Below are positions 11,970 through 41,584 of a stretch of 64,000 nucleotides of DNA, piece by piece (the first letter of the stretch is position 1; each line of letters opens with the position of its first letter). The notes beneath the pieces are model-generated. The model searched no databases. It was not told the DNA's origin and saw only the letters and a program-made list of their open reading frames with translations. The stretch is from Brevibacterium sp. ZH18 (GTDB lineage Bacteria; Actinomycetota; Actinomycetes; Actinomycetales; Brevibacteriaceae). Position numbers and translations under genes: made by a program. The stretch spans positions 1 to 64,000 of the forward strand of contig NZ_JALDSX010000008.1 of assembly GCF_022748595.1 (NCBI RefSeq), read 5' to 3'.

Positions 11970-13402
11970 CTATGCCTGATGCTTGGCCGCGTTGTCAACA
12001 AGGGAGTAAAAGCGTCCCTTGGTGATCACCGTCAGAAGTACGTGCAGGATCGGACCGATGAACATCGCAATGAACGATGCGTAGTAGATCGGATACATAC
12101 CGGCAAGGCCTAGTCCCCCGATGATGACAGCGACTCCCATAGCGATCATTCCGCATGGATTCCAGTCTCTGATGACCTTCTCGTCATAATCGATCTTCTC
12201 CGTCGGAGCGTATTTGAACACTTTTCGGCACACGTAATAGTCCGCGAGGAGGATGAAGATCCACGTATTCGTCATGATTCCGGTGACTGCCAAGAAGGTG
12301 TCGGTGTACTGCAGAACGTTGACTGGATAGAGCGCAATACCCAAGATCAGGAGTCCGACCATCCACCAGTTGCGCCGGATCGGCCTCTTCGCGAATGCAT
12401 CCCAAGTGTTGGAGAATGCGAGAGACCCTGAATAGAGGTTCATGACATTGATTCGAATCTGGGTGATGATGGCGAACACAACGCCAAGGAAGCCCATGAC
12501 CATTGCGAAGACGAACCCGGGATCGGTCGAATAGAGGACTGGATCCCCCTGGGAGATACTCGGGTAGACCGTGAAAGCGAGGAGCGATCCCAGGATCAGG
12601 ACGACGGCGATCATAATCATCTCGCCGAACATGATTCCTGCGGTCCCCTTGTACCCGATCTGAGGGCGTGAGAAGCGACCATAGTCCGTGGCGAGCAGAG
12701 CCTGGAACACGATCTGCCCATTCACCAACGAGAACGCCTGCCACATCACCGTGGGATCATCTGGAGTAAGTGAAACCCATTGCCCGGGCCCCGCAATTGC
12801 GTGGCCCTGAGAGAGCATAAAAATTCCGAGGATGAAAAGCCCCAAGAAGATCGGCATGCCGAAACGTTGCAGAATATTCATCGAGTGCATTCCACGCCAA
12901 GCAAAATACAATGCCGCGGCACCGACAAGCGCAAAGATAACACTTGCGGTCACCGAGCTCTGACCTACCCCGAAATATTCACTCAACGCATGCGAAACAA
13001 TGCTTCCTTCAAAAATAAAGTAGAAATGTAGTTGATTCCATAAATGAAGGAAGCAACGGCTGACCCTTTTGCGCCAAACCCCAATCCACGGGTGAGGAGA
13101 ACAAGACTGAGTCCTTCCTTCGACGCAATCTTCATAATGAGCGAACCAAGCACCGTGGACACCACAACCAGATAGCCGATCGGAATCAACATCATTGGCC
13201 AACCGACGAGGAAGCCGATCTGGCCCCCAAGAGTGAACCAGAACATCGCGGTGACGTTGCCCGTCAGAATCAGGAGGATTGCAAATGCAGGCCATCGCTG
13301 AGACCGTGGAACTCGCTTCGTTGCGTAACTTTCCATTTGATCATCCAGCGACGTTGCTGGACTTTTGAAGGCATCCCTGAGCGCCAATGTGACCTCTTTC
13401 AT
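11970..13402 (-). pseudogene. NCS1-family permease, frameshifted
   Basis: The gene reads as a nucleobase:cation symporter-1 (cytosine/allantoin/hydantoin-type) carrier split over two frames. The first part, from ATG 13402, gives the N-terminus and TM1-3, ending FIYGINYI. The rest, from about 13027 to 11970, continues with FYFIFEGSIVSHALSEYFG and nine further membrane segments. Adding one T in the T-run at 13024-13026 restores a single frame of about 477 residues, the normal family length. Everything else is intact, so this is either a recent mutation or a base-calling error. It heads the amide operon: it would import the substrate of the two hydrolases downstream. Codon use is AT-richer than in neighbouring genes. 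Confidence 0.8.
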
Positions 13403-13677
13403 AGTCGAGACCTAGCAAGACTCACATGTCCAAGGCATTCTTGCAATGAAACTTATGGAAAATCCCAACTGTCAAGACTGCGATACTTCACAGTCATTGT
13501 GCAAAAACGCCTATTGCATTCCGGCGGCAGGTAAGGGATATGTTCGTGGTTGCCAAACTTAGTTGCCAATTCCGCTCAATTTACGTACTAAATCAGTGAT
13601 CATCAAAACGCAATAGCGCGCCTGATTGTTGCCAGACCCGCCGCCCAAAGGCTCTGGAGTTGTGCGCATATAGTAGT
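13403..13677. other. AT-richer upstream region of the amide operon
   Basis: No gene is visible in this 275-bp stretch. It holds three copies of GTTGCCA (13549, 13562 and about 13627); the first two, as GTTGCCAA, are 13 bp apart. ACTGT/ACAGT arms lie nearer the permease start. It probably carries the permease promoter and regulator sites; no regulator gene is adjacent. Confidence 0.4.
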
Positions 13678-13709
13678 GGAGGCTGCGCCGGTTCTCTGAC
13701 GCAGCCTCC
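13678..13709. terminator. Terminator hairpin after the flavin monooxygenase
   Basis: A perfect 10-bp stem, GGAGGCTGCG (13678-13687) with CGCAGCCTCC (13700-13709), with a 12-base loop. It lies 33 bp beyond the stop codon of the minus-strand monooxygenase. No clear T-tract follows on either strand. Confidence 0.65.
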
Positions 13710-13742
13710 TCCTCATCTAGAGGGGTCGAGACCACCAACGTC

Positions 13743-15563
13743 TCAGCTCAGGTGGTGAGATTCTTGCAGGCCGTACACCGGCGTATCGATTCCCTCATAG
13801 CGCGCTTTGAGCTGGAGCCCCAGGTATAGCGAGTAGTGCCGTGACTGGTGGAGGTTGCCTCCCATGAACCAGAGGTTCTCCTGCTGAGTGGGCTTCCACA
13901 TGTTCCGCTCTTCGCCCTCCCACGGGCCGGGGTCCTTGGTGGTATCGGAGCCGAGGCCCCAGCATTTACCCACCTTGTCCGCAGTCTCCTGATCGACGAG
14001 GTCAGCGACCCACCCGTTCATCGACCCGTATCCGGTTGCGTAGACGACAAGGTCAGCAGGCAGCTCGGTGCCATCGGCGAGTGCTACGGAGCCCTCGGTC
14101 AGATGGTCAACGTCGCCCTTGGCCAGTTTCACCTTGCCGTCGGCGACGAGTTCAGCGGAGCCGACGTCGATGTAGTAACCGGAGCCGCGGCGCAGGTACT
14201 TGAGGAAGAGCCCGGACTCGTCGTCACCGAAGTCGAGGTCGAACCCGGCTGCTTCCATCCGCTGGTAGAAGTCCTTGTCGCGCTCCTTCATCTGGTCGTA
14301 GAGCGGAATCTGGAATTCGTGCATGATCCGATACGGCAAAGAAGCAAAGATGAGATCGGCCTTCTCCGTGGTGACACCGTTGGCGAGCGCCTTCTCCGAA
14401 TAGAGATCGCCGAGTCCGATCTCCATGAGCGAGTCGCTCTTGACGATATGCGTGCTCGAGCGTTGGACCATCGTCACATCGGCGCCGTGTTCGTAGAGCG
14501 CCCCGCAGATGTCGAAGGCGGAGTTGTTGCTGCCGACGACGACGACCTTCTTGCCCGTATAGGCGTCGGGACCCCGGTGTTCCGAAGAGTGCTGTTGCTC
14601 GCCCTTGAAGATGTCGGCCCCGGGGAAGCTCGGAACATTCGGCTTGCCGGACATGCCCGTGGCCATGACGAGCTGGGTCGGGTGCAACGTCACCTTTTCG
14701 CCATTGCGCTCGACTTCGACTGTCCACTGCTGCGACTTCTCGTCGTATTTCGCCGAGTTGGCCGTCGTCGACGACCAATACGGAATCTCCATCACCTTGG
14801 TGTAGAACTCCAACCAATCTGCGATCTTGTCCTTCGGGGCGAACACCGGCCAGTTGTCGGGGAATTTGAGGTAGGGCAGGTGGTCGTACCAGACCGGGTC
14901 GTGCAGGCACAGTGACTTGTAGCGTGATCTCCACTGGTCACCTGGACGCTCCCAGCGATCGATGACGAGAGCAGGCACACCGAGCTGACGCAGGCGAGCG
15001 CCCAAAGCAATGCCGCCCTGTCCGCCACCGACGACGAGGATGTACGGGTCAGCGCTCTTGCCCCAGGCGGCGTCCTCCTCGGCGAGCTTCTCCGACCAGG
15101 ACTTCCGGTCGGGGTCGACTCCATGCTCGGCGCCCTTGACTCGGCGGTCTCCGCGGGGCTCTTCGTGGCCGACCAGTTCCTGCAGTGCGGTGAGCACGGT
15201 CCACGCTTTGGTCCCGTCCTCGTCGATGAGCCGGACGAGGCCCTTGCCACGTCCCACCGAGGTGGCGAAGGTGAACCAGGCTTCGGTCACTCCGTCAGCT
15301 GTCGCGGCGGGTTCGCTGAGTTCGAATTCCGTGGGCGAGACCCGATCCAAGTTGGCCGTCAGCAGATCGGTGACGCCTTCGGGGTTCTCCACCGTCTTGA
15401 GGTTCCAGGTGAAGGAGACCAGGTCCCTCCAATAGCTCGCCGTGGCGAACAGTCCCGCTGCGGCCTTGATATCCCGACTGCGCAGTGCGGATTCGAAGTC
15501 ACCCAACCATTGGGTTGCGATGTCGTCGGCGGTGAGCTGTGGGCGTTCAACTGTCGTTGTCAT
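13743..15563 (-). CDS. Flavin-containing monooxygenase with N-terminal NTF2-like domain
   Basis: A 606-residue group B flavoprotein monooxygenase. Residues 10-135 form a SnoaL/NTF2-like domain. The oxygenase follows, with an FAD-binding glycine loop at 179-184 (GGGQGG), the FMO fingerprint FxGxxxH at 319-325, an NADPH-binding GSNNSAFD near 344-351, and a late ATGY motif. It would insert oxygen into a ketone, amine or sulfide using NADPH and O2. ATG 15561-15563 is chosen because GAGGAG precedes it. It is divergent from a GAF-domain regulator across 113 bp, the arrangement expected for an inducible catabolic oxygenase. The substrate is not known; Baeyer-Villiger chemistry is possible. Confidence 0.85.
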   Translation of the reverse strand: MTTTVERPQLTADDIATQWLGDFESALRSRDIKAAAGLFATASYWRDLVSFTWNLKTVENPEGVTDLLTANLDRVSPTEFELSEPAATADGVTEAWFTFATSVGRGKGLVRLIDEDGTKAWTVLTALQELVGHEEPRGDRRVKGAEHGVDPDRKSWSEKLAEEDAAWGKSADPYILVVGGGQGGIALGARLRQLGVPALVIDRWERPGDQWRSRYKSLCLHDPVWYDHLPYLKFPDNWPVFAPKDKIADWLEFYTKVMEIPYWSSTTANSAKYDEKSQQWTVEVERNGEKVTLHPTQLVMATGMSGKPNVPSFPGADIFKGEQQHSSEHRGPDAYTGKKVVVVGSNNSAFDICGALYEHGADVTMVQRSSTHIVKSDSLMEIGLGDLYSEKALANGVTTEKADLIFASLPYRIMHEFQIPLYDQMKERDKDFYQRMEAAGFDLDFGDDESGLFLKYLRRGSGYYIDVGSAELVADGKVKLAKGDVDHLTEGSVALADGTELPADLVVYATGYGSMNGWVADLVDQETADKVGKCWGLGSDTTKDPGPWEGEERNMWKPTQQENLWFMGGNLHQSRHYSLYLGLQLKARYEGIDTPVYGLQESHHLS

Positions 15564-26612: not shown

Positions 26613-27188
26613 GTGAACAACGTCACCGGCACCGCGACCACCGAACCGCCACCGCCCCCGAGAGCACAGGCCCACATCATCGTCGGGGTCGCTCCCGGCG
26701 AGGTCGTCGCCACCGCTGCGACCTATGCGGATCGCTTCGACGCCGACCTCATCTGCGTCCACGTCGACGACTTCCGCTATACCGTTGAAATCCGTTCCGA
26801 TGGGTCCGTCGTGTCGATACCCATCGACCCGGACCTCGTCGCCGAGGCGGCCCCTGAATTCGATCCACTCCTGCACTCCGCGATCGCCGAAGTCCTCCGA
26901 GGATCGAGCGTGAACTGGACACTTAAGACTCTGGCAGGCAGTGCCTCTCAGGAGTTGGCTAGCTTGGCAGAGGAGGTCGATGCGCAGATGATCGTCGTCG
27001 GTGTCCGCAAGGCCGGCATCAAAGGCTCGTTTCACGAATTCTTCAACGGTTCGGTCGCCATTCAGTTGGCACAACATCAGCACAGGCCCCTTCTCGTCGT
27101 ACCCTTGGCGTCAGATCCTGCGGTGGGCCCGTCATATCCCGAGGTGGGGGCGTCGGGCCCCGAAATAGCTGGAGGGGGCGAACAGTGA
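26613..27188 (+). CDS. Universal stress protein family protein
   Basis: A 191-residue UspA-fold protein beginning with a Pro-rich linker (EPPPPPRAQ) followed by HIIVGVAPGEVVATAATYA and ending with the nucleotide-loop-like VGVRKAGIKGSFHEFFNGSVA. GTG 26613 is chosen because GGAG precedes it by five bases and the fold begins just after. It is the first gene after the fluoride riboswitch and overlaps the first crcB gene, so it is part of the fluoride response. UspA proteins are known companions of crcB genes under fluoride switches. Its biochemical job in fluoride stress is not known. Confidence 0.85.
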   Translation: MNNVTGTATTEPPPPPRAQAHIIVGVAPGEVVATAATYADRFDADLICVHVDDFRYTVEIRSDGSVVSIPIDPDLVAEAAPEFDPLLHSAIAEVLRGSSVNWTLKTLAGSASQELASLAEEVDAQMIVVGVRKAGIKGSFHEFFNGSVAIQLAQHQHRPLLVVPLASDPAVGPSYPEVGASGPEIAGGGEQ

Positions 27189-27712
27189 ACCGGCCGCTTC
27201 ACCTGCGGTTGCCCTATCTTGGCCTCGCCATCCTCGGCGGCACCATGGGTACGGCCGCGCGCGAGGCAGTGTCTCTGGCGTTTCCTCCGTTCGCTGGGAT
27301 CCCGCTCGCAATTTTCATGGTCAACATCCTCGGCGCGTTTCTGCTCGGTCTTCTTCTCGATACTCTGGCCCGCAGTGGCCCCGATGAGGCAGGTCGACGC
27401 ACGGTGCGCATCATGGTGGGCACCGGCTTCATGGGCGGCTTCACCACTTACAGTGCCTTGGCGACCGACGCGGCCCTACTCATCGGCAACGGCTCCGTCG
27501 GCACCGGCATCACCTACGGGTTGGCCACCCTGTTCATCGGCGGGATCGCCACCTGGGCGGGAATCGCGGTGGCCAGCGCAGCTCACAATCGCCGCGGTGC
27601 TCACTCGTTGCAGCAAGCAGGAGATATGCCGCCATCGCCAACGAACACCAGCACCAGCTCCGGCACCACTGCCGAGGCTGACGCCGACGTTCAGGGCGGA
27701 GGCGCGCAATGA
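27185..27712 (+). CDS. crcB: Fluoride channel subunit CrcB/FluC (first copy)
   Basis: A 175-residue four-TM protein of the Fluc family that exports fluoride across the membrane as a dual-topology or paired dimer. The signature GTGFMGGFTTYSAL and the NILGAFLLG asparagine segment are present. The Phe/Thr-rich pore residues are retained. It carries a hydrophilic C-terminal tail of about 40 residues, rich in Ser, Thr and Pro, beyond the usual length of about 125. GTG 27185 overlaps the usp stop codon. It overlaps the second crcB by four bases, so the two subunits probably form a heterodimer with opposite topologies. Confidence 0.93.
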   Translation: MNRPLHLRLPYLGLAILGGTMGTAAREAVSLAFPPFAGIPLAIFMVNILGAFLLGLLLDTLARSGPDEAGRRTVRIMVGTGFMGGFTTYSALATDAALLIGNGSVGTGITYGLATLFIGGIATWAGIAVASAAHNRRGAHSLQQAGDMPPSPTNTSTSSGTTAEADADVQGGGAQ

Positions 27713-28086
27713 CCCTCCTCGTCTTCATTGCTCTGGCAGTCACCGGCGGACTCGGAGCCTCGACGCGCATGTTCCTCGATGGGCTCATCAAATCGCGAGT
27801 GAGCGGACCGACCCCCTGGGGCACGATCATCATCAATGTCAGCGGATCATTGGCGCTTGGTCTCGCCACCGGACTGGCGACCGGTCAGATCCTGCCGGAA
27901 GCATGGCATCTGATTATCGGCACTGGCTTCCTCGGCGGCTACACCACTTTCTCCACTGCGAGCTTCGAGACCGTCCGCCTGATCCAAGAGCGCAAATGGG
28001 CCATCAGTCTCGTCAATTCCCTCGGCACTCTTCTGCTCGCAACCGCTGCCGCAGGTGTGGGGCTCTGGGCAGGCGGATTGGTCTAA
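27709..28086 (+). CDS. crcB: Fluoride channel subunit CrcB/FluC (second copy)
   Basis: A 125-residue four-TM Fluc protein with GTIIINVSGSLALG and the signature GTGFLGGYTTFSTASFET, the normal family length. Paired with the preceding crcB through an ATGA overlap. Paired crcB genes are common in Gram-positive bacteria and give heterodimeric channels. The 3' end overlaps the convergent otsA gene by four bases, so there is no room for a terminator between them. Confidence 0.93.
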   Translation: MTLLVFIALAVTGGLGASTRMFLDGLIKSRVSGPTPWGTIIINVSGSLALGLATGLATGQILPEAWHLIIGTGFLGGYTTFSTASFETVRLIQERKWAISLVNSLGTLLLATAAAGVGLWAGGLV

Positions 28087-29441
28087 GACTCAAGAGCGTC
28101 AAGGAAGTGACGAGCCCAGTCGTGGACGTCGTGGCCAGTGACCACGTCGGCCATGACATCGATACGACTGTTGGCTTCTTCGGCATCCATTTCCACCGCT
28201 TGCGTGATCGCGGATTTGAGTTTGTTGAGGTTATGGGGATTGATGAGCAAAGCCTCGGTGAGCTCATCAGCGGCACCGGCGAATTCGGACAGCACCAGGG
28301 CACCACCTCGTCCTCTCCGCGCGCAGACGTACTCCTTAGCGACGAGGTTCATACCGTCACGCAGAGCCGTGACGAGCAGGGCGTCGGCAGCCAGATAGAG
28401 GGCGATGGTGGATTCGAAGGTATAAGAGCGGTAGAGGTAGTGGACGACCGTACCGCTGAGGCCCGCAAACTTTCCGTTGATGCGCCCAACCAGCTGCTCG
28501 ACGTTCTCGCGCAGCTCTTGGTAGGCGGCCATCCCCTCGCGCGACGGCACGGCAACCTGGACGAGGCACGTGCGGCAGGGGTCGAGTGCTCCTTCGTCGA
28601 GGAGCTCTTCGTAGGCGAGCAGCCGCTCGATGATTCCCTTCGTGTGATCGAGACGGTCGACTCCGAGGAGGAGAGTCTCGGGCGAACCGAGGTCCGCGCG
28701 GACGGCCTCGGCCTCCCGGAGCACCGTCTCTGAATGCGCGGCATTTTCAACATCTTCGACGTCGATGGAGATGGGATAGCTGCCTAGTGCCAGCGTTAGG
28801 CGACGGGAGTCCTTGGGAGCGAGCTTGTCCAATGCTGTGGAGAAATTCGTGACGTCGGACTCCCGCTGGAAGCCGATGACATCGGCCCCGAGGAGGCCGC
28901 TCAGTATCTCGTCTCGCCACGGAAGCTGGGAGAAGAGTCCTGACGGTGGGAAAGGGATGTGACTGAAGTAGCCGATCGCCACGTCCGGGCGGCGTTGGCG
29001 GAGCAGGTTCGGTACCAGCTGCAGCTGGTAGTCGTGGATCCACACGGTGGCCCCAGGCGCAGCACACCGCGCAACAGCCGCGGCGAATCGCTCGTTGATG
29101 ACCTGATAGGCGTTCCACCAGGATCGGTGAAACTGCGGGGCGACCACCTGGTCATGATAGAGCGGCCAGATAGTGGCGTTAGAGAATCCTTCGTAGTATT
29201 CGCGAAGCTCCGCCGAGCTCAAAGCAACCGGTTCGAGCGAGATCCCATCGAATTCGAAAGGGTCGAAATGCTCATCACAGGCGCCGGTCCATCCGACCCA
29301 GATACCGCCGCGTTCACGCACGACCGGAGCCAGCGCAGAGACCAGTCCGCCCGGGGACGCAGACCAGTGATCTCCACATCGATCGACAGGCAACCGGTTG
29401 GCAACAACGATCAAGGACTTGCCTACAGAATCTTCCGACAT
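28083..29441 (-). CDS. otsA: Trehalose-6-phosphate synthase
   Basis: A 452-residue glycosyltransferase family 20 enzyme that makes trehalose-6-phosphate from UDP-glucose and glucose-6-phosphate. Landmarks are VVANRLPVD and ASPGGLVSAL at the N-terminus, VWIHDYQLQLVP, GFQRESDV, and the late GVDRLDHTKGI and LRDGMNLVAKEYV blocks. Full length for the family. It acts in the cytoplasm in osmotic and desiccation protection. No phosphatase (otsB) gene is adjacent in the window. Confidence 0.96.
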   Translation of the reverse strand: MSEDSVGKSLIVVANRLPVDRCGDHWSASPGGLVSALAPVVRERGGIWVGWTGACDEHFDPFEFDGISLEPVALSSAELREYYEGFSNATIWPLYHDQVVAPQFHRSWWNAYQVINERFAAAVARCAAPGATVWIHDYQLQLVPNLLRQRRPDVAIGYFSHIPFPPSGLFSQLPWRDEILSGLLGADVIGFQRESDVTNFSTALDKLAPKDSRRLTLALGSYPISIDVEDVENAAHSETVLREAEAVRADLGSPETLLLGVDRLDHTKGIIERLLAYEELLDEGALDPCRTCLVQVAVPSREGMAAYQELRENVEQLVGRINGKFAGLSGTVVHYLYRSYTFESTIALYLAADALLVTALRDGMNLVAKEYVCARRGRGGALVLSEFAGAADELTEALLINPHNLNKLKSAITQAVEMDAEEANSRIDVMADVVTGHDVHDWARHFLDALES

Positions 29442-29616: not shown

Positions 29617-29705
29617 ATTTATTGCATTATAGGCTTGCAGTAATGAGCATAGAGACCTGCGGACCAGCCGCAGGTGCATGCAGACAAAACGAAGGAACTC
29701 ACCAT

Positions 29706-29978
29706 ATGGGCTTTATCGCTTACCTCATCCTCGGCCTCATCGCCGGAGCCATCGCCAAGCTGATTCTGCCGGGGCGGCAGGGCGGCGGCTGGATCGCCAC
29801 ACTGATCCTCGGCGTCATCGGTGCTGCCCTGGGCGGTTGGCTCGGCAGTGCGATCTTCGGAGCGGGAGTCGATTCGTTCTTCGACCTCTCCACCTGGCTG
29901 TGTGCAATCGGCGGGTCGCTGATCGTACTCATCATCTGGGGACTTATCACCGGCCGGAAGCGTCCAGCCAAAGCATAA
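29706..29978 (+). CDS. GlsB/YeaQ/YmgE-family small membrane protein
   Basis: A 90-residue protein with three hydrophobic segments and the family's glycine-rich pattern GLIAGAIAKLILPGRQGGG and ATLILGVIGAALGGWLG. The family was named transglycosylase-associated, but its members are stress-induced small membrane proteins without known enzyme activity. GAAGGAA precedes the ATG; an in-frame upstream ATG at 29622 lacks a ribosome site. The AT-rich upstream region holds two palindromic sites, so expression is probably regulated. A strong hairpin follows. Confidence 0.85.
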   Translation: MGFIAYLILGLIAGAIAKLILPGRQGGGWIATLILGVIGAALGGWLGSAIFGAGVDSFFDLSTWLCAIGGSLIVLIIWGLITGRKRPAKA

Positions 29979-30183: not shown

Positions 30184-30849
30184 GTGGTTCGCCAACGCTT
30201 GCACCGACGCGATGTCGTTCAGGCAGCGATCGCGTTCATTGACGAATACGGAGTGCAAGCACTCACCATGCGACGATTGGGCGCCTCGCTCGATGTGGAG
30301 GCGATGGCCTTATATCGACATGTTCCTGGTCGTGAAGAGCTCCTCTCTGCAGCCGTGAGCGAACTCATCGACAATCTGTTCGATGATGACCTGATGCAGG
30401 AAACCCCCTCGTCATGGGAGCGCTACCTCCAATGCGTGGCCCACGCAACTCGCAGAATGGCCTTGAAACATCCGAAGGTGTTCCCCTTGATGATCTCCCA
30501 GCCGCCGGAAGCACCGTGGCTGCGTCCTCCACTGAGGAGCATCCGCTGGGTCGAGCACTTTCTGTTCTCACTCAACCACTATGGCTTCTCCGACAATCAC
30601 GCCGTCGCCTCTTACAAGGCCTTCACCAGTTTCCTGCTCGGTGACCTTCTGCTCCAAGTCTCGGCTATGGATAGCGATGCCACCCCAATCCCTGCTGACA
30701 CACGCGAAGAGCAGGACGACGAGGATCTCGAGGATTTCCCCACAGTTCAGCGACTGCAGAGCAAACTCGCACAGAATCATTCTGACCGAGAGTTTTCCGA
30801 CGGTCTCGATGATCTCATCGAACGAATCCGCACGTCACTGGCAATCTGA
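30184..30849 (+). CDS. TetR-family regulator with TetR_C1-type effector domain
   Basis: A 221-residue regulator. The DNA-binding domain spans residues 5-50 (ALTMRRLGASLDVEAMALYRHVPGREEL), the variant seen in TetR(C1) proteins. The acidic EEQDDEDLEDF stretch near residues 178-188 is unusual. GTG start supported by AAGGAG. It is 92 bp upstream of the dehydrogenase/deacetylase/glycosyltransferase cassette on the same strand, and downstream of the small membrane protein gene. It may control either; the two GTTTA-N5-TAAAC sites are candidate targets. Confidence 0.85.
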   Translation: MVRQRLHRRDVVQAAIAFIDEYGVQALTMRRLGASLDVEAMALYRHVPGREELLSAAVSELIDNLFDDDLMQETPSSWERYLQCVAHATRRMALKHPKVFPLMISQPPEAPWLRPPLRSIRWVEHFLFSLNHYGFSDNHAVASYKAFTSFLLGDLLLQVSAMDSDATPIPADTREEQDDEDLEDFPTVQRLQSKLAQNHSDREFSDGLDDLIERIRTSLAI

Positions 30850-30941: not shown

Positions 30942-31994
30942 ATGCGCACCGAAAACCACCTTGACCTCCAATCACAAATCCTCTCCGCTCCGCTGGCCCC
31001 CTGGTACGGCGATTCACTCGCTACGGACACCTTGACCAAGCTGGTCACCGGCAACGCAACTGCGGCACAGAAGATCACATCTCTGCAGAGCTGCCTCGGG
31101 CTCTCGGGCACGTCCTCACAGCTGCGCCAGTGGGAGTCTTTGGCCCGGATCGCGTCGATCGACATCGCTGTCGCTCGCATGCTCGAGCCGCATGTCGATG
31201 CCCTCGGGATCCTCGCCGAGGCTGGGCTCGAGGCTCCAGCCGCGCAGTCCACCTGGGGCGTGTATGCCGCGGAGGTCCCAGGCAAGGTCGTCACCCTCAC
31301 CGAGGCGGACGGCAGTGTGATCATCAACGGAGAGAAAGCCTGGTGCTCCTTGGCGTCAGAGCTCAGCCATGCCGTCGTCATCGCCCATCACGGCGAGCAC
31401 CGGCGCGCATGTGCTGTCGGGCTCGACCATCCCAAGGTCAAGGCCGATCCCAGCTCGTGGCCAAGCCTGGGACTCAAAGAGATTCCGAGTGGATCCGTCG
31501 CATTCGACCACGTTCCGGCCGAGTTTGTCGGACCCGATGGCTGGTACCTCGACCGCCCCGCATTCGCTTGGGGTGGGATCCGGGTGGCCGCCTGCTGGTT
31601 CGGCGGGGCATTGGGCTTGGCACGCAATGCAACTCGACGCCATCTCGCCCGACCCTCTCCTGCCCAGATAGGCGATATGGCAGTGGGGCAGATCGATGCC
31701 GAAATCTTCACGGCGCGCTCGGTCCTCGCCGAGGCGGCCGGGGCCGCCGACGGTGAGGAGCCGTACTCGCGAGCCCAGGCATGGACGCTGGCACTGCGGG
31801 TGCGCAATATCGTCTATCGAGCGTCTCAGCGCATTCAGCACTTGAGCAGAGAGCTCGCCGGGCCAGCCGCGCTCACAGGTGATGCCGCGTTCGCGAAGGC
31901 CGATGCCGACCTCACTGTCTACCTCAGTCAGCACCACGGTCCTAGGGACGAGGCGTCTCTGGGCGCCGAGCTCGGGAAGGCACTTCAGCAATGA
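30942..31994 (+). CDS. Acyl-CoA dehydrogenase-like flavoprotein
   Basis: A 350-residue protein with the acyl-CoA dehydrogenase layout: an N-terminal helical part, a middle beta domain with WGVYAAEVPG...INGEKAWCSLASE, and a C-terminal helical bundle. It is short, and the usual catalytic glutamate motif is not obvious, so it may act on a non-CoA substrate or bind flavin without beta-oxidation chemistry. It overlaps the next gene by four bases. Together with the PIG-L/methyltransferase and glycosyltransferase genes it forms a three-gene translationally coupled cassette. That context argues against fatty-acid degradation and for modification of a glycosylated product. Confidence 0.75.
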   Translation: MRTENHLDLQSQILSAPLAPWYGDSLATDTLTKLVTGNATAAQKITSLQSCLGLSGTSSQLRQWESLARIASIDIAVARMLEPHVDALGILAEAGLEAPAAQSTWGVYAAEVPGKVVTLTEADGSVIINGEKAWCSLASELSHAVVIAHHGEHRRACAVGLDHPKVKADPSSWPSLGLKEIPSGSVAFDHVPAEFVGPDGWYLDRPAFAWGGIRVAACWFGGALGLARNATRRHLARPSPAQIGDMAVGQIDAEIFTARSVLAEAAGAADGEEPYSRAQAWTLALRVRNIVYRASQRIQHLSRELAGPAALTGDAAFAKADADLTVYLSQHHGPRDEASLGAELGKALQQ

Positions 31995-33376
31995 CGACGT
32001 TCAGTCACCTCGATGAGAGCACACCGGAAAGCGCATGGATCCGTGCTGGGGTTCTGGATCTGCCGCTCCTTGCCACCGACACCTTCGCGGGCGGAGGCAC
32101 CATTGTGGTGCTGGCAGCTCACCCGGACGACGAAGCTCTCGGTGCAGTCGCACTCCTGTCTCGTGCTCGCGACTGGGACTGCGACGTGTCCGTGGTGCTG
32201 TTCACCGCGGGAGAGGGATCGCATCCGAACTCACCCACGCATACGCGTGCCCAGCTCAGGGACATTCGCCTCGACGAGTTCGACACCGCACTGAGCGCAC
32301 TCAACCCATCGGTGACCAGTAGAGTTCTCAATCTGCCTGACGGCGCCCTGCCAGAGTGCAGCGATCAGGTGTTCGACGAGATCATGAGAGAAATCGCCGA
32401 GGTGCGTGGCCCGGTGACGATCGTCAGTCCATACAGTGCCGACGGTCACGGCGACCATGAGGCTGTGGGAGCAGCGGCACTCGAGGCGGGACGTCTCAGC
32501 CGCGCCCTCGTCCTCGAATACCCCATCTGGTATTGGCATTGGGCTTCTCCCGAGGACAGTCGCTGGCGGACGTGGCGATTTCTCCCCGATCCCGGCGATC
32601 GTGCTCGTCACCAGGCGCTCGACTGCTATCGCTCACAGACTCTGCCTCTCTCGGAGCACGTCGGTGACGAAGCAATCCTCGGTGCCGCGCAGCTTGAGCA
32701 TCACGATCGCAGCGGAGACACCTTTGCGGTCACCGACTTCAGCAGCCGGAGCTCCGCGGTCAACGACGCGACCACAGCCTCGGCGGTCTTCGACAACGTG
32801 CATGCCGATCGTGTTGACCCCTGGTCCGTTCAGGACTCCGAGTATGAGATCGCCAAGCGAGACACTCTGCTTGCCCACCTCCCGCAACGGCCCTATTCGC
32901 ACATTGTCGAGATCGGCTGCTCGATCGGCGCCCTCAGCCGAGAGCTCGCCCTGCGCAGTCGCAGAGTCACTGCAATTGATGCCAGTCGGGAGGCGCTGAA
33001 GAGCGCAGAGTATTTCAACTCGACGAATACCGCGGCTGGTCTCAGCTTCATCCATGCCACGGTGCCCTTCGAATGGCCGGAAGGGCGCTTCGACGCCGTG
33101 GTGCTTTCGGAGACGGGTTTCTATCTCTCACGTGCTCAGCTGGAACGGACACTCGAACGCATTAATGCAACGACGACACGGAGCTTCGTGTTGGTGCTCT
33201 GTCATTGGAAAGGCGAGATCCGCGACTGGCCGCTGGATGCCGACGAAGTACATGAGGTCGCCCTGGGATTTTGGCCGCACCACAGCACCGTCGTCCACCT
33301 CGATGCCGAGTACCGGCTCGACATCGCCATAGTGACAAAAACCGGCCCTCCGGCTGAGACAGTGGCTGAACGGTGA
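31991..33376 (+). CDS. Bifunctional PIG-L deacetylase / SAM methyltransferase
   Basis: A 461-residue fusion. Residues 35-210 are a PIG-L (LmbE) zinc deacetylase, with the metal motif AAHPDDE near residue 37 and the second metal site DGHGDHEAVG near 150. Residues 275-455 are a class I methyltransferase of the NodS type, with HIVEIGCSIGALSRELA as the SAM-binding motif. PIG-L enzymes remove N-acetyl groups from sugars such as GlcNAc conjugates, and NodS methylates the freed amine, so sequential deacetylation and N-methylation of one amino sugar is plausible (inference). Overlaps both neighbours by four bases. Confidence 0.85.
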   Translation: MTTFSHLDESTPESAWIRAGVLDLPLLATDTFAGGGTIVVLAAHPDDEALGAVALLSRARDWDCDVSVVLFTAGEGSHPNSPTHTRAQLRDIRLDEFDTALSALNPSVTSRVLNLPDGALPECSDQVFDEIMREIAEVRGPVTIVSPYSADGHGDHEAVGAAALEAGRLSRALVLEYPIWYWHWASPEDSRWRTWRFLPDPGDRARHQALDCYRSQTLPLSEHVGDEAILGAAQLEHHDRSGDTFAVTDFSSRSSAVNDATTASAVFDNVHADRVDPWSVQDSEYEIAKRDTLLAHLPQRPYSHIVEIGCSIGALSRELALRSRRVTAIDASREALKSAEYFNSTNTAAGLSFIHATVPFEWPEGRFDAVVLSETGFYLSRAQLERTLERINATTTRSFVLVLCHWKGEIRDWPLDADEVHEVALGFWPHHSTVVHLDAEYRLDIAIVTKTGPPAETVAER

Positions 33377-34083
33377 TCGACCACCTCGCGGTCATCATTC
33401 CGGCACACAACGAAGAAGACGAGATCGTTGACTGTCTGACCTCAGTCGTGTGCTCGGCAGTGCTCGCGCAGCGCAAGGACCCGGAACTCCGTGTGCAAGT
33501 GATCGTCGTCGCCGACGCCTGCACCGACGGCACACACGATGTGGTCGCCGGATTCGCCCAGCAGAATCCACTGGTCGAGATACTCAGCACCTCATACAGC
33601 AATGTGGGTCGCGCGCGCGATGCCGCAGGAAGGTTGCTTCTTCGCTCTCTCCGTGACGCTCATCCGCAGGCTCTTGAGACTGCTTGGATGGCCTTCACCG
33701 ATGCAGACAGCCGTGTTCCCGAGCAGTGGGTCGCCACACATCTTCACGAAGCACTGCTCGGCGCGGACTGCCTGGTCGGCACGGTCGCGCCCCGGCCTGA
33801 GACAGGATCGGCAGACCTCATCGCCAGATGGCATGAAACGCATCACCTGGTCGAAGACCACCCTTATGTGTTCGGAGCGAACCTCGGGCTCCGCGCAGCC
33901 TATTTCGAGAGGATCGAGGGCATCCCTGCTTTGTCGTGCGGTGAGGATGCCGCAGTGGTGGCAGAGATTCTCAAAGCCGGCGGGAAGGTGCGCCGCACGG
34001 ACAGCTGCAGGGTGCTGACCTCGGCTCGGCTGGATGGCCGAGTACAAGGCGGATTCAGCACCTATCTGCAGAGCCTGATCTGA
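33373..34083 (+). CDS. Family 2 glycosyltransferase
   Basis: A 236-residue GT-A enzyme. It opens with VIIPAHNEEDEIVDCL, has the nucleotide-binding VVADACTDGTHD, and the metal-binding DADS near residue 114. No membrane segment is apparent, so it is cytosolic or peripheral. Last gene of the three-gene cassette. It should add the sugar that the fused deacetylase/methyltransferase then edits. The acceptor is unknown. The convergent DUF3151 gene begins 15 bp away. Confidence 0.85.
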   Translation: MIDHLAVIIPAHNEEDEIVDCLTSVVCSAVLAQRKDPELRVQVIVVADACTDGTHDVVAGFAQQNPLVEILSTSYSNVGRARDAAGRLLLRSLRDAHPQALETAWMAFTDADSRVPEQWVATHLHEALLGADCLVGTVAPRPETGSADLIARWHETHHLVEDHPYVFGANLGLRAAYFERIEGIPALSCGEDAAVVAEILKAGGKVRRTDSCRVLTSARLDGRVQGGFSTYLQSLI

Positions 34084-36747: not shown

Positions 36748-37488
36748 TCAGCGCGGTGCCATGCGGATCGCTCCGTCGAGGCGGATGACCTCACCATTGA
36801 GCATGCGGTTGTCGACGATGTGGGTGACGAGGTTCGCGAACTCGCTGGGATCACCGAGGCGCGAGGGGAACGGAACCTGTTTGCCCAACGAGTCCCGGGC
36901 CTCCTCGGGCAGGCCCGCCATCATCGGAGTGAGGAACAGGCCGGGAGCGATCGTGACGACGCGGACGCCGATGCTCGCCAGATCACGGGCGATCGGCAGG
37001 GTCATGCCGACGATGCCGCCCTTGGATGCGGAATAGGCGGCCTGACCGATCTGACCGTCGAAGGCGGCGACCGAGGCGGTGTTGACAACGATTCCGCGTT
37101 CGCCGTCTTCACCCGGTTCATTCGTCGCCATCGCGGCGGCGGCCAGGCGGATGACGTTGAAGGTGCCGATGAGGTTGACCCCGATCACCTTGCCAAAGTC
37201 GCCGAGGTCGTGCGGACCCTTCTTGCTCAAGGTCTTCTGTGCCACGCCGATGCCTGCGCAGTTGACGACGCCGGAGAGCGCACCGTCCTTGTTTGCGAAC
37301 TCAACTGCGGCAGCGACGCTGTTTTCGTCGGTGACATCGGTCGCGACGAATTCGGCTCCGGCCGGTGCCTCACCCTTGACGTCGGCCACGACGACGCGGG
37401 CCCCGCGTTCAACGAGTGCCGAAGTGGTCGCTCCGCCGAGCCCGGAGGCTCCGCCGGTGACGATGAAGGTCCTGTCTTGGAACTGCAT
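36748..37488 (-). CDS. Short-chain dehydrogenase, 3-hydroxyacyl-CoA dehydrogenase type
   Basis: A 246-residue SDR with [12 protein letters not shown] as the NAD-binding loop, NCAGIG, and the catalytic S-Y-K set (NTASVAAF and YSASKGG). The overall sequence resembles HSD10-like 3-hydroxyacyl-CoA dehydrogenases, which oxidise the 3-hydroxy intermediate in beta-oxidation. ATG 37488 is chosen over 37503 on the basis of GGGAAG upstream. Last gene of the catabolic operon 41584-36748, 24 bp after the acyl-CoA dehydrogenase. Confidence 0.85.
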
Positions 37489-37512
37489 GTACTTCCCTTT
37501 CAAATGATGAAA

Positions 37513-38667
37513 TCAGAGCCCGCGAGAGATGAGTTCCTTCATGATCTCGTTCGTACCGCCGTAGATCTTCTGCACCCGAGCGTCGGCGTACATGCGAGCG
37601 ATCGGGTATTCGAGCATGTACCCGTAGCCGCCGAAGATCTGCAGGCAGCGGTCGATGACGTTGGTCTGCGCATCCGTTGCCCAATACTTGCCGGCCGAAG
37701 CCTGCTCGGTCGTCAGCTTCCCGTCGATGTGAAGCTGCGTGAGATGGTCGACGAATGCCCTGGTCGACAATGTCTCCGTGGCACATTCGGCGAGGACGAA
37801 CTTCGTGTTCTGGAATTTGATGATCGGCTGCCCGAACGCCTCACGTTCTTTCGCATACGCGACCGCTTCACGCACGGCAGCCTCGGCGGTCGTCGCACCG
37901 AGCACGGCCAAGGCCAGTCGCTCCTGAGGCAGCTGCTGCATGAGCTGGACGAACCCCCGCCCCTCGACACCACCGAGGATGTTCTCAACAGGCACCCGCA
38001 TGTCCTCGAAGAACAGCTCCCTGGTGTCCTGGCCTCGCTGTCCGATTTTATCGAGGACGCGCCCACGGGAGAACCCTGGAAGATCGGCCACCTCGGCAAC
38101 GATGAGTGAGACACCTTTGCCACCACCGTCTTCGCTCGTGCGAGCGACGATGACGACGATGTCACAGTGGGTGCCGTTGGAGATGAAGGTCTTTGACCCA
38201 TTGATGACGTACTCGTCGCCGTCACGAACGGCTTTCGTCTTCACGTTCTGCAGATCCGATCCGGTGCCGGGCTCGGTCATCGCAATTGCCGCGACCAGTT
38301 CGCCTGAGGCCATGCCCGGCAGCCACTTCTTCTTCTGCTCTTCGGTGCCGAACGCATAGATGTAGTGGGCGATGATCGTCGAATGAACACTGTTGGCCCA
38401 GGCCGAATCACCAGCGAAACCCTGTTCCTGCAAGATGACAGCCTCGTGGGCGAAGGTGCCGCCACCGCCACCGTATTCCTCAGGGATGGAGATGCAGAGC
38501 AGACCCGCATCGCCGGCCCGGTTCCACAGTTCGCGATCAACCTGGTGGTCTTCGACGAACTTGGCCTGATTGGGCACGATCTCTTTGTTCATAAAGCTGC
38601 GAACGAGTTCGCGCAGATCGTCTGTTTCCTGTGTTTCCCAGGAACCGCGGTATCCGTCAAGAATCAT
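37513..38667 (-). CDS. Acyl-CoA dehydrogenase
   Basis: A 384-residue flavoprotein that oxidises acyl-CoA to the 2-enoyl ester. Family blocks are present: AMTEPGTGSDLQNVKT, the FISNGTHCDIVVIVART flavin region, and the C-terminal QIFGGYGYMLEYPIARMYADARVQKIYGGTNEIMKE. It is similar to long- or branched-chain acyl-CoA dehydrogenases. ATG 38667 is chosen because AAGGAAG is six bases upstream; an in-frame ATG at 38673 overlaps that site. It functions with the thiolase, ligase and SDR of the same operon. Confidence 0.9.
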   Translation of the reverse strand: MILDGYRGSWETQETDDLRELVRSFMNKEIVPNQAKFVEDHQVDRELWNRAGDAGLLCISIPEEYGGGGGTFAHEAVILQEQGFAGDSAWANSVHSTIIAHYIYAFGTEEQKKKWLPGMASGELVAAIAMTEPGTGSDLQNVKTKAVRDGDEYVINGSKTFISNGTHCDIVVIVARTSEDGGGKGVSLIVAEVADLPGFSRGRVLDKIGQRGQDTRELFFEDMRVPVENILGGVEGRGFVQLMQQLPQERLALAVLGATTAEAAVREAVAYAKEREAFGQPIIKFQNTKFVLAECATETLSTRAFVDHLTQLHIDGKLTTEQASAGKYWATDAQTNVIDRCLQIFGGYGYMLEYPIARMYADARVQKIYGGTNEIMKELISRGL

Positions 38668-38765
38668 TGTCATCTTCCTTTGCAGTTGGTGTGGCGTCGT
38701 TCGGTGAAGGCAGGCACAGCTTCGTTGGCATCCTCGGTCCGCAGAAGCAGGAGGAGGATACAGCG

Positions 38766-38867
38766 TTAGAGGTCGAGGTCCTGACTGTAGGGCGCTTCGT
38801 CGGCGTGGCGGACGATGTCAGAGACGAGCCCTGCCGACTCGGCCATCCATGGTGTCGTGCCGGTCAT
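38766..38867 (-). CDS. Small ORF between thiolase and acyl-CoA dehydrogenase
   Basis: A 33-codon frame (MTGTTPWMAESAG...) that starts four bases after the thiolase stop codon, with AAAGGA eight bases upstream lying inside the thiolase 3' end. It is not obviously similar to any family. It could be a real small protein or the remnant of a larger gene in the operon. The 98 bp that follow to the dehydrogenase start hold nothing visible. Confidence 0.4.
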   Translation of the reverse strand: MTGTTPWMAESAGLVSDIVRHADEAPYSQDLDL

Positions 38868-38870
38868 CGT

Positions 38871-40061
38871 TCAGATCCTTTCGATGATGGTGGCGTTGGC
38901 CATACCGCCGCCTTCGCAGATGGTGAGCAGTCCGTAGCGGGCGTCGCGGCGTTCGAGTTCAGAGATGAGCCCAGTGAGCAGGCGTGCTCCCGTGGAGCCG
39001 ATTGGGTGACCGATCGCGATGGAGCCTCCGTTGACGTTGAGGATCTCATCATCGACGCCGAACTCCCGTTGGAACAGCAGAGGCACCGGTGCGAAGGCCT
39101 CGTTGACCTCGACGAGGTCGATGTCGCCGATCGACAGCCCTGCCTTCTTGAGCACCGCGTGGCTGGCGGGCAGGACCGCAGTGAACTGGAGGACGGGATC
39201 TGCGGCTGCGGCGACACTGGCGACGATCCGAGCGCGTGGTCGCAGACCGGCTGGCTCCGCGACACTGCGATCGGCAAGCAGCAGCGCCCCGGCTCCATCG
39301 GAGATCTGCGAGGAGTTGCCTGCTGTGATTGCACCGTCGACTGCGAATACTGTGGGCAGTGAGGCGACCTTGTCCGGATCCACGCTGGGACGGATGCCTT
39401 CATCCGAGGTCAGGGCCACCTCGGCGCCATCCGTGGTCAGCCCTGTGAGTGGAACAAGGTCACCAGTGAAACGGCCGGCGTCCGTCGCCGCGGCGGCGCG
39501 GTGGTGGCTGCGGACGGCGAAAGCATCGAACTCCTCACGGGCGAACCCCAACTCCCTGACGACGAGTTCGATGGATCTCCCCTGCGAGGGTAGGTCGCCG
39601 TCGAAGCGCGCCAGCGCCTTCTTCCCGTACCAGTCACCGCGGGAGCCGTGAGGGTCGAAGAGGGGGCCCATGTCGACTCGGCTCATCGATTCGACTCCCC
39701 CGGCGATGGCGAAGCGATAGTCACCCGCGCGGATGGCCTGGGCGGCGAACTGCACGGCCTGCTGGCCCGATCCACACTGCCGGTCGAGGGTCGTCCCTGG
39801 CACGGAGGTCGGCAGTCCCGCACCGAGGAGGGCGTTGCGAGCGACGTTTCCTGACTGTTCTCCGCACTGGCGGCCGACACCGACAATCACATCGTCGATG
39901 ACTTCTGGGTCGACCCCAGCCCGCTCGACGAGGTGGCTCATCGTGCTCGCCAGGAGATCGACGGGATGGCTCTCGCGCAGTGCTCCACGGAACTTGCCGA
40001 CGGGGGTACGGACCGCGTCGACGATGACCGCCTCGTGTGCTCGCGTGTATGCCTCTGCCAT
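38871..40061 (-). CDS. Acetyl-CoA acyltransferase (thiolase)
   Basis: A 396-residue thiolase. The nucleophile is C96 in LDRQCGSG, with H352 in IAIGHPIG and C382 in TICEGGGMANA. It cleaves 3-ketoacyl-CoA with CoA in degradation. ATG 40061 shares a base with the ligase stop codon (TGATG), so the two are translationally coupled; the frame upstream belongs to the ligase. The NEAF motif (VEVNEAFAP) of the family is present. Confidence 0.92.
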   Translation of the reverse strand: MAEAYTRAHEAVIVDAVRTPVGKFRGALRESHPVDLLASTMSHLVERAGVDPEVIDDVIVGVGRQCGEQSGNVARNALLGAGLPTSVPGTTLDRQCGSGQQAVQFAAQAIRAGDYRFAIAGGVESMSRVDMGPLFDPHGSRGDWYGKKALARFDGDLPSQGRSIELVVRELGFAREEFDAFAVRSHHRAAAATDAGRFTGDLVPLTGLTTDGAEVALTSDEGIRPSVDPDKVASLPTVFAVDGAITAGNSSQISDGAGALLLADRSVAEPAGLRPRARIVASVAAAADPVLQFTAVLPASHAVLKKAGLSIGDIDLVEVNEAFAPVPLLFQREFGVDDEILNVNGGSIAIGHPIGSTGARLLTGLISELERRDARYGLLTICEGGGMANATIIERI

Positions 40062-41584
40062 CACCGGAGACTCTCTCTGATCTTGTGCTTCTGGATTTTG
40101 CCCGAAGGATTTCGCGGGATCTCGGAGATGATGAGCTCGCGAGGGATCTTGTAGGACGAGAGCAACGGCTCCGCGAACTCCTTGAGACCTTCGAGGGTGG
40201 GCTGCCCGTTCTGGGCCGGAGTGACGACGGCGACGATCGTCTCGCCCCACTCTTCGTTCGACCGCGAGATGATCGCGATGTCGATGATCTCCGGGTAGGC
40301 GGCGAGCGCGTTCTCCACTTCAGCCGAGTACACGTTGTGGCCGCCGGTGATGATCATGTCCTTGAGCCGGTCGACGATGGTCATGAAGCCTTCATCGTCG
40401 ACCTGGACGAGGTCGCCGGTATGTACCCACCCGTCGACGATGGTCTGTGCGGTCGCGTCCGGTCGGCTCCAGTACCCCTTCATCATCGTCTCCCCGCGCA
40501 TGATCATCTCACCCACCTCGCCGGATTGGACGTCCTCTCCATCGGCGTCGACGATGCGGACTTCGGTGTTCGGGATGGGGAAGCGACCCGAGGCTGAGGG
40601 TCTCCGCTTGACGTCGTCATGGGCGAGGATGATGCCACCGGGTCCACCCTCGGTCTGTCCGCACGCCTGGATGATCTCCGTATGGGGGAAGGCTTCGAAG
40701 ATGCGTTTCGCGACGGTTGCCGGCATCGGTGCCGCACCGTAGATCGCGACGCGCAGGCCCGAAGTGTCACGACTCGAGAGACTGGGTGCGCGCAGCAGGA
40801 ATGCGTACATCGTCGGCACTCCGAAGAAGACGCTGATCCGGTGCTCCTCGAATGCGGCGAGGACCGCTTCGGGGTCGAAGGCCGAGTGGATGACCTGGTG
40901 GGCACCGGCCATCATTCCGGGGAAGAAGAGCAGGTTGAGCGCCGCCGAATGGTAGAGAGGGGCGACGTGGAGGATTCGATCATGCAGCCTCAGACCGAAG
41001 GCCACCGTGGCGTTGACCCCCACCCAGATGATGCGGTGATGATCGAACAGAGCACCCTTTGGCTTCCCCGTCGTGCCGGACGTGTAGATGATGACAGCAT
41101 CGGCGTCCTCGGCGATGTCCAAGTTGACTTCCTCGACGGGCCGGCAGTGCGCGGCAGCGAAGACATCCTCACCGAAGTCCGCCGGTCCCAACGACAGCGC
41201 GGAGACTACGGCGGCGGTCGTCGGATAGTCGCTGGCCCATGCGCTGACCGGTTCAGTGCAGTCCGGCCCGAAGAGGAGGACTGTCGCCCCGGTGTCGGTC
41301 ATGAAGTGTTCGATCTCGGCCGAGGCCGATTTCGGGTTGACCGGGGCGATGATCGCTCCCGCGCGCAGTCCCGCATAGGCACCGATGGCGAACGCATCGG
41401 TATTGGGCGAGACGATGACGATCCGGTCTCCCGGCCCAACTCCGCGGGCTAAGAGCTCAGCGGCAAGCTGGTCGACTCTGGCGTCGAATTCGCTGTACGT
41501 CGTCGTGGTCTTCTCGAATGTCAGTGCGGGACGGTCGGGATAGGCGCGAGCGGTGGTGCGAAGTATTCCTGGCAGTGTGGGCAT
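40061..41584 (-). CDS. AMP-forming acyl-CoA ligase (FadD-like)
   Basis: A 507-residue ANL-family ligase: IIYTSGTTGKPKGA as the phosphate loop, CGQTEGG as the adenine motif, GWVHTGDLVQVD, and the terminal NPSGKIQKHKIRE with the catalytic lysine. It activates the acid that enters the operon. First gene of the operon ligase-thiolase-small ORF-dehydrogenase-SDR. The acid is unknown; no hydratase gene is in the cluster, so an enoyl-CoA hydratase must come from elsewhere. Confidence 0.9.
   Translation of the reverse strand: MPTLPGILRTTARAYPDRPALTFEKTTTTYSEFDARVDQLAAELLARGVGPGDRIVIVSPNTDAFAIGAYAGLRAGAIIAPVNPKSASAEIEHFMTDTGATVLLFGPDCTEPVSAWASDYPTTAAVVSALSLGPADFGEDVFAAAHCRPVEEVNLDIAEDADAVIIYTSGTTGKPKGALFDHHRIIWVGVNATVAFGLRLHDRILHVAPLYHSAALNLLFFPGMMAGAHQVIHSAFDPEAVLAAFEEHRISVFFGVPTMYAFLLRAPSLSSRDTSGLRVAIYGAAPMPATVAKRIFEAFPHTEIIQACGQTEGGPGGIILAHDDVKRRPSASGRFPIPNTEVRIVDADGEDVQSGEVGEMIMRGETMMKGYWSRPDATAQTIVDGWVHTGDLVQVDDEGFMTIVDRLKDMIITGGHNVYSAEVENALAAYPEIIDIAIISRSNEEWGETIVAVVTPAQNGQPTLEGLKEFAEPLLSSYKIPRELIISEIPRNPSGKIQKHKIRESLR

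Follow-up and report, generated by a model that had tools for sequence, protein, structure and literature searches.

An apparently undescribed cassette of Brevibacterium coupling a flavoprotein, a deacetylase-methyltransferase fusion and a glycosyltransferase in a stress-gene neighbourhood

In Brevibacterium sp. ZH18, three overlapping genes encode a flavoprotein of the acyl-CoA dehydrogenase fold, a PIG-L deacetylase fused to a methyltransferase and a glycosyltransferase, which raises the question of whether these genes form a unit and, if so, of what such a combination could make. The locus was considered within a stretch of 64,000 nucleotides (contig NZ_JALDSX010000008.1, positions 1 to 64,000), referred to below as the window. 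As presented here, the cassette is a real, widely conserved and apparently undescribed biosynthetic unit, in which known enzyme families are brought together in a new combination.

Gene organisation, co-conservation and distribution

The cassette and its immediate neighbours in the window are the following:

28083-29441, reverse strand: trehalose-6-phosphate synthase OtsA (Glyco_transf_20), neighbour of the cassette
29622-29978, forward strand, start uncertain: transglycosylase-associated small membrane protein (YeaQ/GlsB type), stress-type neighbour
30184-30849, forward strand: TetR-family regulator (TetR_N and TetR_C_1), its association with the cassette confined to Brevibacterium
30942-31994, forward strand, ORF of 350 aa: flavoprotein of the acyl-CoA dehydrogenase fold without the Glu base, predicted to act as a flavin oxidase/monooxygenase
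31991-32755, forward strand, border approximate: de-N-acetylase part of the fusion, of the PIG-L (LmbE/CE14-type) family, with HPDDE and DxHxDH intact
32756-33376, forward strand, domain border approximate: methyltransferase part of the fusion, class I, SAM-dependent and NodS-like
33373-34083, forward strand: GT2 glycosyltransferase, soluble, consisting of one GT-A domain with a TDADS metal site and an ED motif

The flavoprotein gene and the fusion (ORF 31991-33376, forward strand, 461 aa) share the junction ATGA (31991-31994), and the fusion and the glycosyltransferase gene (236 aa, start codon GTG) the junction GTGA (33373-33376), which confirms the overlaps of four bases described in the initial annotation. 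The fusion that it had proposed is equally real, with PF02585 and class I methyltransferase domains in one ORF. The TetR gene lies upstream and ends 92 bases before the start of the flavoprotein gene. Elsewhere in the window, two adjacent small membrane-protein genes (27185-28086) resemble by eye a CrcB/FluC fluoride exporter pair, the GC content is low from 12001 to 14000 (0.53 vs. about 0.63 around it), and a row of SDR, acyl-CoA dehydrogenase, thiolase and acyl-CoA ligase-like genes on the reverse strand (36748-41584) is apparently an ordinary degradation cluster, the acyl-CoA dehydrogenase of which served as a comparison sequence for the flavoprotein.

The flavoprotein is present in 31 of 57 Brevibacterium genomes and the fusion in exactly the same 31. 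Across a class-level sample of 247 genomes, the flavoprotein was found in 43, 41 of which also possess the PIG-L/methyltransferase protein, mostly adjacent, while 10 genomes of the sample have the latter without the flavoprotein. In a scan of named genomes seeded with the flavoprotein alone, the 80 best relatives out of at least 550 were retained, a selection thus biased to close ones; these 80 actinobacterial loci had a PIG-L protein nearby in 79 cases, a methyltransferase in 79 and a glycosyltransferase in 76, the first two being fused in 75 of the 80. Besides, the distance matrices of the three proteins correlate over 77 loci (Mantel r 0.79-0.88, with none of 500 permutations reaching the value), a correlation that shared vertical descent explains in part. 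Chance adjacency of the three genes is ruled out by these co-occurrence data. The initial annotation held that the genes belong together and named a genome survey of joint conservation as the ground on which this could fail; the survey gave the opposite of a refutation, the three genes being conserved together.

A second complete cassette occurs in the same genome, about 57 kb away and on the opposite strand (contig C115 of genome G000, about 89.2-92.4 kb, reverse strand; locus L132:5231-8434), the fusion of which is 57% identical to the first. This copy has its own TetR homologue, with Dps and BrkB close by, and two copies are also found in at least six other Brevibacterium genomes. A third flavoprotein copy (G262:C1:437252-438148, Brevibacterium) is 59% identical over its first 301 residues, with no adjacent PIG-L/methyltransferase match reported.

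Regarding distribution, the cassette functions are encoded together in four phyla, namely Actinomycetota, Pseudomonadota, Deinococcota and Cyanobacteriota. Plasmid-borne cassettes were found in Acinetobacter, Comamonas, Pandoraea, Cupriavidus, Komagataeibacter, Sulfitobacter, Roseomonas, Novosphingobium, Paracoccus, Bradyrhizobium, Legionella lytica, Kitasatospora and several Deinococcus, as well as on one Nostoc plasmid. Outside the actinobacterial group, the PIG-L protein and the methyltransferase are usually encoded by separate genes in the same order. The arrangement can be looser, since a helicase gene stands between these two in Deinococcus radiodurans, with no glycosyltransferase annotated beside them, the PIG-L gene is displaced from the rest of the cassette at one Cupriavidus locus, the flavoprotein, PIG-L protein and methyltransferase occur in Roseomonas without an adjacent annotated glycosyltransferase, and the flavoprotein is alone in Methylobacterium sp. 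FF17.

Neighbourhood of the cassette

The neighbours of the cassette point to stress survival, a context comprising OtsA, Dps, catalase and OtsB that was absent from the initial annotation. On plasmids of two Comamonas species, otsA, the flavoprotein, PIG-L, methyltransferase and glycosyltransferase genes and otsB follow one another in one row on one strand; otsA itself is present on just 349 of 72,556 plasmid records. The cassette of Acinetobacter ursingii lies between catalase and otsA/otsB, the Legionella locus includes otsB, and 6 of the 11 Brevibacterium copies examined, that of the window included, have otsA no more than 10 kb away. Paracoccus, Cupriavidus, Sulfitobacter and Novosphingobium likewise have catalase close to the cassette, and a Ku gene accompanies it in Novosphingobium and Bradyrhizobium. 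Directly upstream and on the same strand are dps at eight Arthrobacter/Pseudarthrobacter loci and catalase at two Nocardioides loci; ferritin-like proteins are found among the neighbours as well. At least one stress marker occurred in 10 of 20 cassette regions vs. 2 of 40 control regions of 20 kb drawn from these genomes (Fisher p=1e-4, an optimistic value as the markers were picked from related loci and the genomes are related, not independent), the other 10 cassette regions containing none of the markers tested.

As for regulation, control by the TetR gene, as envisaged in the initial annotation, is plausible for Brevibacterium, where such a gene lies upstream of 9 of the 11 close copies examined, but does not extend to the other genera examined, none of which has it there. 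A motif scan upstream of the cassettes revealed no enrichment of SigB, SigR or SigA-like promoter sites. Sites of the actinobacterial SigF/SigB-like form GTTT-N-GGGTA were seen at 2 of the 20 class-sample loci (L174 and L176), where they precede the flavoprotein match by 89-95 bp, too few to carry any argument.

In the literature, a study of EcfG in Sphingomonas lists stress-regulated glycosyltransferase genes, for which no link to the cassette was established (PMC6599016), and in the transcriptome of drying Curtobacterium an acyl-CoA dehydrogenase and glycosyltransferases are induced together with trehalose genes, the loci not being identifiable from the text (PMC12029717).

Proposed pathway and competing explanations

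The interpretation preferred here, to which an even chance is given, is that the cassette encodes a short pathway to a modified amino-sugar glycoside linked to stress, in which an N-acetylhexosamine glycoside would be made, N-deacetylated, N-methylated and oxidised. In the first step, the GT2 enzyme would transfer an N-acetylhexosamine, probably GlcNAc from UDP-GlcNAc, to a small soluble acceptor, a trehalose-related sugar being one candidate. The glycosyltransferase matches PF00535 at 51.7 bits vs. a gathering score of 23.3 (1.3e-13), and its structure model (pLDDT 96) consists of one GT-A domain without extra helices, which superposes on known GT2 enzymes with a VIA Z of 21.6 and an rmsd of 2.4-2.6 over 186-204 aligned residues. 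The structurally nearest solved proteins include GT2 enzymes such as heparosan synthase and WrtF, as well as TarP and TarS, but likeness of the modelled GT-A fold does not fix the donor.

Heparosan synthase, TarP and TarS being enzymes of polymers or wall glycans, the cassette could instead decorate a cell-surface glycan or glycolipid, i.e. an envelope polymer, an explanation that agrees with the additional glycosyltransferases and UDP-galactopyranose mutase seen at some loci (Deinococcus, Paracoccus, Novosphingobium) and with the BrkB-type membrane proteins near 13 cassette loci. It nevertheless appears rather unlikely considering that the glycosyltransferase is a single soluble domain, that most loci have neither flippase nor polymerase beside the cassette, and that the Comamonas cassette sits between otsA and otsB.

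For a soluble amino-sugar glycoside, the second step would be the removal of the acetyl group by the PIG-L domain. The fusion matches PF02585 at 77.7 bits vs. a gathering score of 28.2 (1.4e-21), and the HPDDE and DxHxDH motifs, metal-binding and catalytic in PIG-L proteins, are present in all 77 homologues. NCBIfam scores indicate a distant relationship of this half to BshB2, BshB1, Mca and MshB; identity with any of these was rejected, with 16-38 bits vs. equivalog cut-offs of 182-277. The distant kinship, together with the Dps, catalase and ferritin-like neighbours, would fit a redox-active cofactor or antioxidant of low molecular weight, akin to mycothiol or bacillithiol, in which N-methylation and flavin oxidation replace cysteine ligation; the cassette, however, comprises no ATP-grasp enzyme, cysteine ligase or thiol chemistry, and its glycosyltransferase is a GT2 and not a GT4 enzyme as MshA and BshA are, so that such a product is judged improbable.

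The amine freed on the glycoside would then be methylated by the NodS-like domain. This second half of the fusion matches class I methyltransferases, including PF05401 NodS (4.4e-9), whose Pfam model it clears with 36.9 vs. 24 bits, and the SAM motif is present in 75 of 77 homologues. Identity with the nodulation methyltransferase NodS itself was rejected, the domain reaching 37.8 bits vs. the cut-off of 300 for the NCBIfam equivalog NF041650.

In the last step, the flavoprotein would oxidise the amino sugar, by N-oxygenation or amine oxidation, and not a fatty acyl chain. Its model (pLDDT 92.5) exhibits the complete helix-barrel-helix fold of acyl-CoA dehydrogenases and superposes on isovaleryl-CoA dehydrogenase with a VIA-align Z of 32.3 and an rmsd of 2.6 over 326 aligned residues, and the sequence matches PF02770, the middle domain of these enzymes, at 33.1 bits, slightly below the Pfam cut-off of 33.3. 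The fold is thus that of an acyl-CoA dehydrogenase, but the catalytic residue of the enzyme is missing, the Glu being absent from both the MCAD-type and the IVD-type positions in all flavoprotein sequences aligned with two ordinary acyl-CoA dehydrogenases, one of them from the window. Where dehydrogenases have the YEGT loop, the flavoprotein has a conserved YLRQ-type stretch, and none of 77 homologues has YEGT, which bears out the earlier remark that a clear catalytic base is lacking. The top Foldseek rows for the model are monooxygenases (the flavin monooxygenase 5gj7, KijD3, DnmZ and TdsC), among which KijD3 and DnmZ are aminosugar nitrososynthases, and profile comparison gives matches to KijD3 (9.7e-5) and DszC (8e-8). 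This structural ranking is only a hint, since VIA-align places true acyl-CoA dehydrogenases (Z 30-32) and monooxygenases (Z 30.3-30.7) level with each other and its list for the model displays no preference for one enzyme type. In addition, four Deinococcus flavoproteins (L035:7749-9998, L129:6552-8900, L219:5584-7947 and L040:4190-6529) are extended at the N-terminus by a GH1-like domain of about 370 aa, in which VNE and ETG motifs are conserved; in Deinococcus sp. AJ005, this domain matches a genuine GH1 protein of the same locus (1e-17). As a domain of sugar type is fused to the flavoprotein there, a sugar substrate is favoured.

Action of the flavoprotein as a genuine acyl dehydrogenase on the acyl chain of a lipid-linked sugar, as the overall fold and the PF02770 match would allow, is accordingly very unlikely in view of the loss of both known base positions in every sequence aligned, of a cassette without acyl carrier, acyltransferase or ligase, and of the GH1-like fusion in Deinococcus. 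Least probable of all is a small secondary-metabolite cluster for an antibiotic-type amino sugar, which the fold likeness to the antibiotic nitrososynthases KijD3 and DnmZ, the patchy distribution in Brevibacterium and the plasmid carriage could evoke, but which the spread over four phyla, the conserved order, the stress-gene neighbours and the want of a consistently linked efflux or resistance gene speak against.

Provided that the pathway to an oxidised amino-sugar glycoside is read correctly, the flavoprotein is a candidate for an activity new to a fold that is mostly associated with the oxidation of fatty acids. On the same condition, a large number of stress-tolerant bacteria, among them the model Deinococcus radiodurans and many soil actinobacteria, would make a sugar-derived compound that is yet to be named, and a short, cleanly defined pathway would make it directly approachable to ask which small molecules other than trehalose protect drying cells. 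A bolder and doubtful extension is that four enzymes of actinobacteria, proteobacteria, Deinococcus and cyanobacteria would produce an undescribed, horizontally mobile stress metabolite, i.e. an amino-sugar glycoside, perhaps with trehalose as its base, that is both N-methylated and N-oxygenated and would aid tolerance to drying or oxidation.

Relation to known systems

Full-text searches of one open-access collection of papers found no published description of the cassette, in agreement with the initial annotation, which knew of no described pathway with the same gene set; papers elsewhere may exist. The resemblance to Nod-factor synthesis by NodC, NodB and NodS, also raised there, stands as a functional analogy only. 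The proposed chemistry is alike, namely transfer of an amino sugar, N-deacetylation and N-methylation, but the methyltransferase half is only a distant relative of NodS, the deacetylase is of the PIG-L/LmbE type whereas NodB is a CE4 polysaccharide deacetylase, and the glycosyltransferase is short and soluble whereas NodC is membrane-bound and processive. Besides, the cassette adds a flavoprotein, is without the acyltransferase NodA and is found in a context of stress instead of symbiosis. Nod-factor biosynthesis proper was therefore rejected, the three genes holding a PIG-L protein and a short GT2 enzyme in place of a CE4 deacetylase and a processive synthase.

The mycothiol (MshA/MshB) and bacillithiol (BshA/BshB) pathways share with the cassette a glycosyltransferase followed by a PIG-L deacetylase, as well as an actinobacterial presence; they differ in that MshA and BshA are GT4 enzymes and the cassette has a GT2, with a methyltransferase and a flavoprotein in place of the cysteine ligase, and in that its PIG-L half scores far below the cut-offs of their deacetylase families. 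Because of these scores, the other class of deacetylase and type of glycosyltransferase, and the lack of a cysteine ligase, the cassette is placed outside the Nod, mycothiol and bacillithiol systems. The nitrososynthases KijD3, DnmZ and ORF36 and the monooxygenases DszC and TdsC have the acyl-CoA dehydrogenase fold in common with the flavoprotein and are among its best Foldseek matches, but their identity to it is 17-22% and VIA-align does not part them from true dehydrogenases. Lastly, trehalose synthesis by OtsA and OtsB is linked by position, in an apparent operon with the cassette on the two Comamonas plasmids and nearby in Acinetobacter and several Brevibacterium; these are, however, separate enzymes, and as the cassette also occurs without otsA and otsB, it does not itself belong to the trehalose pathway.
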